Shown piece after piece: positions 18,750-25,146 of a DNA stretch of 64,000 bases. Position 1 is the stretch's first letter. Each line of letters begins with the position of its first letter. The notes under the pieces are model-generated. The model had not been told where the DNA came from, searched no databases, and saw only the letters and a list, made by a program, of their open reading frames with translations. Both the position numbers and the translations under genes were made by a program. The stretch comes from Candidatus Gemmiger faecavium (GTDB lineage Bacteria; Bacillota; Clostridia; Oscillospirales; Ruminococcaceae), in the NCBI GenBank assembly GCA_019114415.1, contig DXFO01000039.1, positions 1 to 64,000 of the forward strand. Direction: 5' to 3'.

Positions 18750-18856
18750 ACTCCGGCGGATAGATTTTGACCGTTCGCAAGACCGCCAGCCTTGCGTCGG
18801 TTTGTCGCCGTCTCCCATGGGGGGAGGGGCGGAGCCTAAAATCCTAAGTTGCTCAA
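18750..18856 (-). ncRNA. preQ1-III-like riboswitch of queT
   Basis: The leader keeps the two blocks I remember from the Faecalibacterium preQ1-III aptamer: GCAACTTAGGATTTTAGGCT at its 5' side and GGCGGTC...CGGTCAAAAT...ATCCGCCGGAG at its 3' side. GGCGG can pair with the CCGCC that abuts the Shine-Dalgarno CCGGAG, so ligand binding would hide the ribosome site. The assignment comes from memory of the published class and from the gene it controls; a covariance search was not run. Confidence 0.85.
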
Positions 18857-21840: not shown

Positions 21841-21874
21841 AAAAGACGGCGGAGCCCAGGCTCCGCCGTCTTTT
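21841..21874. terminator. Bidirectional terminator between the small protein gene and serA
   Basis: AAAAGACGGCGGAGCC and its near-complement with a short loop; A-run and T-run on the two sides. Confidence 0.9.
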
Positions 21875-23098: not shown

Positions 23099-24196
23099 TC
23101 AGGCGTTTTCCTTGCGGAACTTCTCCATAAAGACCACCAGGTCGTCAATGGCCTTGGGCGGCATGGCGTTGTAGATGGAAGCCCGCATACCGCCCACCAG
23201 GCGATGGCCCTTCAGGTTGACGAAGCCTGCCTCGGTGGCTGCGGCGCAGAAGGCCTTGTCCAGTTCCGGCGTGGGGCTGGTGAAGGTGACGTTCATCATG
23301 CTGCGGTATTTGTGCTCCACGGGATTTTTGTAGAAGTCCTGGCTGTCCAGATAATCGTAAAGGACTTTTGCCTTGGCCTCGTTGATCTTCTTCATCTCGG
23401 CCAGGCCGCCGATGTCGTGCTCCAGGTAGTCCATGACCAGCCCGGTCATGTAGATGCACCAGCAGGGCGGGGTGTTGTACATGCTGTCGCTCTTCAGCAG
23501 GGTGGTATAGTTCATCATGGTGGGGATCTGCTCGGGGGCGATGCCCTTGGCGCTCTTGCCCAGCAGGTCCTCCCGGATAATGGCAATGGCCATGCCCGCG
23601 GGGGCAACGTTTTTCTGCACGCCGAAGTAGATGCAACCGTACTTGCTCACATCCACAGGCTCGGAGAAGATCATCGAGCTCATGTCCGCCACCAGGGGCA
23701 GGCCCTCCACCTGGGGGACATCCACAAAGCGGGTGCCGAAGATGGTGTTGTTCTGGCAGATGTGCACATAGCTGGCGTCGGCATCGTAGTCGATGGTGTT
23801 GACGTCGGGAATGTAAGTGAAGTTCTTGTCCTTGCTGGAGGCAACGATGCGGGCCTCGCCGAACTTGGCGGCTTCCTCGGCGGCTTTCTTGGAGAAGTTG
23901 CCGGTCACCAGATAGTCCGCCTTGCCGGTGGTCATGAAGTTCAGCGGGACCATGGCGAACTGCTGGGTGGCGCCGCCCTGAAAGAACCCGATCTTATAAT
24001 TGTCAGGCACGTTGAGCACCCTGCGGATGCCGGCCTCGGTGCCCTGGATGATCTCGTCAAACCATTTGCTGCGGTGGCTCATTTCCATCACGCTCTGGCC
24101 GGAACCATGGTAGTCCAGCAGCTCAGCCTGAGCACGCTCCAAAACGGGTACGGGAAGCATCGACGGTCCCGCGCTGAAGTTATATACACGATTCAT
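23099..24196 (-). CDS. serC: Phosphoserine aminotransferase
   Basis: PLP enzyme that converts 3-phosphohydroxypyruvate to phosphoserine, the second step of the pathway. ATG 24196 (MNRVYNFSAGPSMLPVPVLE) lies 8 bases after GGGGAGG; 365 residues. The N-terminal NFSAGPSMLP and EMSHRS, the PLP Lys region YFGVQKNVAPAG, and NTPPCWCIYM are family hallmarks. It heads the serC-serA operon behind a 290-base leader. A phosphoserine phosphatase (serB) is not adjacent. Confidence 0.95.
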   Translation of the reverse strand: MNRVYNFSAGPSMLPVPVLERAQAELLDYHGSGQSVMEMSHRSKWFDEIIQGTEAGIRRVLNVPDNYKIGFFQGGATQQFAMVPLNFMTTGKADYLVTGNFSKKAAEEAAKFGEARIVASSKDKNFTYIPDVNTIDYDADASYVHICQNNTIFGTRFVDVPQVEGLPLVADMSSMIFSEPVDVSKYGCIYFGVQKNVAPAGMAIAIIREDLLGKSAKGIAPEQIPTMMNYTTLLKSDSMYNTPPCWCIYMTGLVMDYLEHDIGGLAEMKKINEAKAKVLYDYLDSQDFYKNPVEHKYRSMMNVTFTSPTPELDKAFCAAATEAGFVNLKGHRLVGGMRASIYNAMPPKAIDDLVVFMEKFRKENA

Positions 24197-24229
24197 GGAA
24201 AAAACCTCCCCCAATTTTCTACACGGCTC

Positions 24230-24393
24230 CATAAGAAAACAAAGTCGCAAAACTCTGACTGCAAAGCGGCATCTGCTGCGTTATCGGGTCTTGCGTTCCA
24301 CGAAGGAGCGCTTCGGCCCTCTGCCTTGCATCTGCCGCCTTGCAGCGGTTTTGCGATGCAGAGCAGTTCTTGCAGAACCTCCGTTTTCTTATG
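24230..24393. repeat. 164-bp palindromic element with 11-bp terminal inverted repeats
   Basis: CATAAGAAAAC (24230-24240) and GTTTTCTTATG (24383-24393) are perfect inverted repeats. Inside, TCGCAAAACT pairs with GGTTTTGCGA (24347-24356) and GCAAAGCGGCATCTGC pairs at 13 of 16 positions with 24328-24343, so the whole element can fold as one long imperfect hairpin with a small central CGAAG/CTTCG stem. It has no ORF. It looks like a miniature inverted-repeat element or a structured serC leader; only one copy is in the window. Confidence 0.6.
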
Positions 24394-24489
24394 TCGCTCG
24401 CGCTTTCTGCGCGGCTCCCATTTATAATGTAGCCCGCGCTTTTCCTGATTCTTACAGTCAGGTTGCTTGCGCCGTCAGCGCATACCAGT

Positions 24490-24519
24490 ATTATACGGGC
24501 CGGTGTGCGGAAATCTCAA
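24490..24519 (-). promoter_or_regulatory. Putative serCA promoter
   Basis: TTGAGA lies 18 bases before TATAAT on the minus strand, about 290 bases upstream of serC, leaving the palindromic element inside the transcript. Confidence 0.6.
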
Positions 24520-24753: not shown

Positions 24754-25146
24754 ATGCAGACACTTCCGATCAGTGAGGAACGGGTCATGTGCGCGCTGTG
24801 GAACTGCGGCAAGGCGGCGACCCGGCGGGAAATCGGGGCAAAATTACCCGCCGTATGCGAATGGGCAGACTCGACACTTTTGAATTTTTTGATGCGCCTG
24901 GAGAAAAAAGGCTTTGTCCGCAGCGAGCGGCAAGGCAACAAAAATGTATATACGCCTTTAGTCCGGAGGGAGACCTACTGCGGTGCAGCCACGGCGGAAC
25001 ATCTGGAAGTTTTGTACGGCGGAGACCTGCGCGCACTGGTCAAAGCGCTGGCCGATACCGGCCGGCTGAGCTATGCGAAAATGGAGGCTTTGGCACGCTG
25101 GCTGGACGTCCGGGTGGCGGAAAGTCCAGAGTATGACTACGATTGA
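24754..25146 (+). CDS. BlaI/MecI/CopY-family transcriptional repressor
   Basis: Winged-helix repressor of 130 residues. ATG 24754 follows GGGAGGAA at good spacing. The N-terminal PISEERVMCALWNCG and the recognition region STLLNFLMRLEKKGFVRSERQGNKNVY fit the Penicillinase_R family; the C-terminal helices would dimerise. No BlaR-type sensor protease, beta-lactamase or copper gene is nearby. It lies 143 bases upstream of the Rnf operon on the same strand, so control of rnf or of itself is the simplest guess, but this is unproven. Confidence 0.82.
   Translation: MQTLPISEERVMCALWNCGKAATRREIGAKLPAVCEWADSTLLNFLMRLEKKGFVRSERQGNKNVYTPLVRRETYCGAATAEHLEVLYGGDLRALVKALADTGRLSYAKMEALARWLDVRVAESPEYDYD

Follow-up and report, generated by a model that had tools for sequence, protein, structure and literature searches.

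Several short repeats described in other bacteria can be set beside the element analysed here. YPAL (RU-2) of Yersinia is palindromic, about 168 nt long, intergenic and not A+T-rich, with no TA at its ends; its targets span or adjoin a dyad symmetry, filled and empty sites are known, and target duplications of 3-26 bp occur (PMC2229807). ERIC, RUP, and Correia elements have target duplications and TA at their ends, and an IS partner has been proposed for RUP (PMC2229807). REPs are palindromic, 20-40 bp long, and tagged by GTAG or CGTC (PMC3733652). IS1272, a member of the IS1182 family, targets inverted-repeat structures and replaces the whole stem-loop with no target duplication (PMC5678879). 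The MRSC-65-2 motif, a candidate mobile or repeat motif with UYCCGG, is a multicopy long covarying stem and is suspected to be selfish DNA (PMC11109978).

The window analysed in this study (64,000 nucleotides, positions 1 to 64,000 of contig DXFO01000039.1 of Candidatus Gemmiger faecavium) carries a palindrome in the serC leader (Table 1). Judged on sequence comparison, the best explanation as a whole is that it represents one copy of a dispersed, non-autonomous, MITE-like mobile repeat, which is considered quite probable. Across the compared genomes its dispersal, its placement in hairpin loops, its decay in place, and a conserved folded core are apparent. An earlier note had described a near-complete palindrome of 164 bp with perfect 11-bp terminal inverted repeats and nested arms. 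Both the 11-bp repeats (24230-24240/24383-24393) and the nested arms (24245-24253/24348-24356 and 24259-24276/24328-24345) are present, and the fold is more stable than that of shuffled sequences, while the 164 bp cover the inner repeat only of an element of 183 nt, whose ends, when copies are aligned, are GCGCG...CGCGC. As RNA, the palindrome folds with z scores of -5.7 on the + strand and -7.1 on the serC-sense strand, and in each case 0/200 dinucleotide-preserving shuffles were as stable; as DNA, the serC-sense strand gave -6.0, again with 0/200 shuffles as stable. The position within the probable serC transcript also holds, with the promoter upstream and the start of serC, the downstream ATG at 24196, downstream. 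The element shares its sense strand with serC and is placed, together with a mini-copy, between the putative promoter and the Shine-Dalgarno. ORFs can be read mechanically across the element, which had been described as without one, and none of them shows signs of being a gene.

Table 1. Features of the serC leader, with positions in the window.
Feature	Position	Strand	Basis
Complete 183-nt palindromic element, GCGCG...CGTGT	24221..24403	-	Ends from alignment of copies; R1, 207 bits
Left terminal arm, GCGCGAGCGACATAAGAAAAC	24383..24403	-	
Right terminal arm, GTTTTCTTATGGAGCCGTGT	24221..24240	-	
Conserved core common to Clostridia, CAAGGC...CGAAG...CAAG...AACGC	24268..24336	-	R2, 83.8 bits, and covariation
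Decayed 31-nt mini-copy with the same ends, in tandem directly upstream of the 183-nt element, GCGCGGGCTACATTATAAATGGGAGCCGCGC	24409..24439	-	Read directly
Probable serC promoter, TTGAGA-18-TATAAT	24490..24519	-	11/12 matches
serC Shine-Dalgarno, 8 nt from the right end of the element, GGGGGAGG	24205..24212	-	Read directly
serC (phosphoserine transaminase), downstream gene	23102..24196	-	Identity confirmed

Other features of the surroundings were recorded as well. Two unrelated sites, L021 1453-1564 and window 24221-24439, have a tandem arrangement in which one copy directly adjoins the right end of another, shrunken one. A candidate CopY/BlaI-type repressor gene, with matches below the curated cut-offs, lies divergent from serC at 24754-25146 (+), and serA is followed by a plain intrinsic terminator without an inserted element (21842-21873, -; AAAGACGGCGGAGCCTGGGCTCCGCCGTCTTTTTT). 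Further away, a PreQ1-III riboswitch at 18751-18854 (-) scored 81 bits, above the gathering score.

Searching the genome and its relatives for copies, as the note had proposed, returned many of them as well as unoccupied sites. The own genome contained 23 matches at E<=1e-5, of which about a dozen were full length and several were interrupted by contig ends. In the same search the element was found in 14 of 25 Gemmiger genomes and in none of 16 genomes outside the genus. Of 35 Gemmiger genomes, 19 contained the terminal-arm pattern, while the reversed pattern, run as a control, gave hardly any matches. The element is thus present in about half of the Gemmiger species, an approximate figure as each species is represented by one genome and many of these are drafts. 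An exact pattern with fixed arm spacing was dropped for the copy search as too strict. Copy lengths cluster at about 283, 183, 104-108, and 58-61 nt, and the longest form carries about 100 nt extra at the hairpin tip. Recognisable copies also occur in a few other genera of the same family. A genus-specific repeat family, which the note had offered as one option, is supported by the copies and empty sites; the term fits the whole sequence only roughly and falls short for the core, which extends across the class. No match to the element was found in phage, plasmid, and viral collections, the viral scan being one exact pattern, and nothing corresponding was found in the literature on Faecalibacterium and Gemmiger repeats or on the letters of the core.

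For many copies the two flanks were fused into a composite query, and the genus was searched with these for empty sites. The serC leader is unoccupied in G. gallinarum (L060) and in L058, both of which keep the TATAAT stretch of the putative promoter. The gltX site is filled in G047 and empty in G048, G004, G001, G021, G023, and G013, and uninterrupted sites were found in relatives for several further genes. Filled and empty forms of terminator sites were paired for L142/L211, L199/L209, L198/L222, L144/L210, L038/L216, and L196/L213. At L142 the sequence is CCATCCTAAAA-element-GTAAAGGGATGG, and at the unoccupied L211 it is CCATCCTAAAAAGGATGG; the element fills the loop of the native stem, which is kept. 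Since sites are unoccupied in species without the copy, the behaviour of the element is that of a MITE-like repeat that is mobile but not autonomous, the first of the options in the note, although some of the unoccupied sites in other species may have arisen by loss. A diverged Y1-type transposase match (G017:C62:21779-22045) was observed between the matches to the two flanks of site L007.

Among 62 independent sites, 22 (35%) coincide exactly with the loop of a hairpin, in most cases an intrinsic terminator; the corresponding share among 3,686 random intergenic positions is 4.3% (Fisher p about 2e-14). A site was counted as a hairpin-loop site when, with the element ends fixed, a strong stem spanned the junction at a distance of no more than 7 nt; this intergenic control superseded a first junction-stem scan, in which the control was mostly coding DNA and the offset wider. 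Such sites make up 8 of 9 convergent intergenic sites and 1 of 12 divergent ones. Many of the remaining sites are leaders, those of serC and gltX included. Copies stand at many unrelated genes in both orientations, and orientation relative to the flanking genes is unbiased (19 vs 17 overall, 16 vs 10 for leaders). A bias in orientation relative to downstream genes, likely when judged by eye, was discarded on these counts. Gene positions near copies came from a simple codon-usage caller that was retrained, as training on greedy ORFs was contaminated by antisense ORFs. The preference for loops may reflect targeting, survival where other insertions harm expression, or both.

The empty sites that the note had proposed to search for were found, while a target duplication of more than 5 bp was not: across the 62 sites no exact direct repeat longer than 5 nt occurs at the ends. 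Direct matches of 3-4 nt show a small excess over permuted flanks, and a short target duplication of 3-4 bp is possible. Flanks are A-rich, with AAA on the left and AGAA or GTAA on the right, and part of this A-rich flank probably belongs to the element itself.

Copies also differ in length at the same site. One site holds 169 nt in G008 (L147) and 61 nt in G000 (L030), and another holds only a GCGC footprint in G047 (L208) where G048 (L196) has the long form. These differences indicate that copies decay in place by loss of the middle of the hairpin. Orthologous copies are held in common at L050/L051, L198/L200, and L030/L147, and many remnants were seen, as would be expected if the element were no longer mobile and an ancient spread had been followed by inheritance, loss, and shuffling by recombination, with loop positions representing the survivors. 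Near-identical copies (93-98%) at different sites inside one genome and species-specific sites speak against such a history, which is regarded as unlikely.

The mobile-repeat reading is accompanied by a strongly conserved fold. The 48 copies aligned from the 183-nt class form a structure of 65 pairs in 95% of cells, and 27 of the 65 pairs show changes on both sides, amounting to 122 cells against 37 in shuffled alignments, a value that 0/500 shuffles reached. These changes are spread across the main stem, the side hairpin, and the tip. The check on arm covariation thus turned out very strong, and the absence of other copies and of conserved pairing, which the note had named as grounds against its proposal, is the opposite of what was found. 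Pairing in a palindrome can also be kept by arm-to-arm correction without selection. Intermediates of the G.U and A.C types are near symmetric in Gemmiger (25 vs 20 columns), a pattern more in keeping with a DNA palindrome than with a strand-specific RNA.

Of 124 genera in the family, 12 had matches to a first covariance model, built on the element; at least one of these matches (L246) resembles coding sequence and is likely due to chance. The outer arms of the family matches differ and an inner stretch of 69 nt is common to them. A second model, of this 69-nt core, recovered it from 63 of the 391 Clostridia genomes, representing 40 of the 223 genera, and many of these genomes contain at least a dozen copies; the E-values of both models are rough, as their calibration was short. 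The consensus reads CAAGGC...CGCAG...CAAG...AACGC, with conserved letters in the internal loops (CAAGG, ACG, CGCAG, and CAAG) and variable stems. Across 52 distinct members, 210 cells changed on both sides compared to 63 in shuffles (0/500), with slid controls far lower, in an alignment that was fitted to the model and leans to structure. A model-free alignment of 20 sequences (A5), with the structure assigned by hand from single folds, gave the same picture (73 vs 20.5). As a background, 523 kb of serC neighbourhoods yielded three core matches at E <0.001, the two strong ones both from Fournierella. Against Rfam 15 nothing reached a gathering score, and permissive scans returned weak, unrelated sub-threshold matches only. 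In two other Clostridia genomes (L275, L282) the core lies shortly upstream of a 16S rRNA-like gene start (AGAGTTTGATCCTGGCTCA), and in L249, L250, L269, and L129 two cores stand close together in opposite orientation, like inverted REP pairs.

The conserved internal loops with covarying stems resemble an RNA motif, the class-wide core has a slight excess of G.U over A.C intermediates (9 vs 3 columns), and copies are found in transcribed untranslated regions. A dispersed structured RNA or RNA-mobilised element, whose core works as a transcript, protein-bound or reverse-transcribed, with DNA copies following, would account for these features. This account is somewhat less likely still than a past, completed spread, as the wobble test in Gemmiger is symmetric, orientation to flanking genes is unbiased, and no recurring reverse transcriptase or other partner gene was found nearby. 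The remaining option in the note, a large regulatory hairpin, or any other control of the serCA operon in cis by its leader RNA (riboswitch, attenuator), is highly improbable, as the stable fold of the palindrome and its position on the transcribed strand between promoter and Shine-Dalgarno are outweighed by its absence from all 80 other serC loci examined, with the strong Fournierella core matches more than 2 kb away from serC, by the same sequence at many unrelated genes in both orientations, and by the lack of an Rfam match at gathering. As a mobile repeat, the copy between the promoter and the ribosome-binding site of serC would be a passenger of recent date that may modulate the message, and no serC-specific role of the element is indicated.

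A mobilising enzyme was sought among the 35 Gemmiger genomes, in which no pair of terminal arms is spaced for a coding parent, although drafts could hide one. Y1_Tnp does not follow the element in these genomes, of which the drafts may lack some genes: G020, G014, and G016 have many copies and no Y1 match, while G015 and G005 have Y1 and no element. IS1182-type transposases (DDE_Tnp_1_6) are found in only 6 of the 35 genomes, with a distribution that does not follow the element, and the IS1182-type and Y1 loci examined show no similarity to it. Genes neighbouring the copies include no recurrent gene family and no reverse transcriptase.

The mobile repeat may act as a folded hairpin, either extruded as a cruciform or as single-stranded DNA. 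A putative trans-acting recombinase would recognise the conserved folded core and join the element to the unpaired apex of a hairpin or to an A-rich single-stranded stretch, and the joining would leave no target duplication or one of only 3-4 bp. Terminator loops would be tolerated too, because both the stem and the T-run of the terminator survive when one hairpin is nested in another. Tentatively, the core may mark a Clostridia-wide superfamily of structured mobile repeats, in which a core hairpin with conserved internal loops would be inserted, guided by structure, into apical loops of terminators, probably as folded single-stranded DNA and by an enzyme acting in trans. Such a superfamily would extend the non-coding annotation of abundant gut Clostridia by a widespread group of repeats and would explain some of their contig breaks and leader hairpins. 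It would also allow insertion guided by DNA secondary structure to be tested in a case where the host terminator is left intact, and its conserved core could serve as bait for finding the mobilising enzyme.

Compared to known systems, the element resembles a MITE in its 183 nt, absence of coding capacity, GCGCG/CGCGC ends, many copies, and filled and empty sites, while an autonomous IS sharing its ends was not found in the 35 Gemmiger genomes, of which the drafts could hide one. In view of these shared features on the one hand, and of direct repeats of 5 nt at most and no partner found on the other, it is classed as MITE-like and placed in no named family. ERIC, BOX, RUP, and Correia/NEMIS are similarly short, multicopy, hairpin-forming, often transcribed intergenic repeats with size variants and lineage-restricted occurrence (PMC10969869, PMC3049150), but neither a duplication of more than 5 bp, as in ERIC, RUP, and Correia, nor an IS partner was found here. 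REP/REPIN systems with RAYT (PMC3733652, PMC3116915) share palindromic repeats and, in some relatives, inverted core pairs, and differ in that the Y1 transposase does not track the Gemmiger element. IS1272 encodes a transposase and replaces the target stem, whereas the Gemmiger element keeps the stem. MRSC-65-2 is a single long stem with UYCCGG, whereas the Clostridia core combines CAAGGC/AACGC with side and apical hairpins. Among known kinds, YPAL comes closest in size, composition, and dyad preference, a likeness drawn from its published features. YPAL makes target duplications of 3-26 bp, and at the sites of the Gemmiger element no direct repeat exceeds 5 bp, with the small excess at 3-4 nt. 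Insertion at dyad symmetry is shared by both (22/62 sites in a hairpin loop), while the Gemmiger element is distinguished by its position in the apical loop of terminators and by a core conserved across the class.
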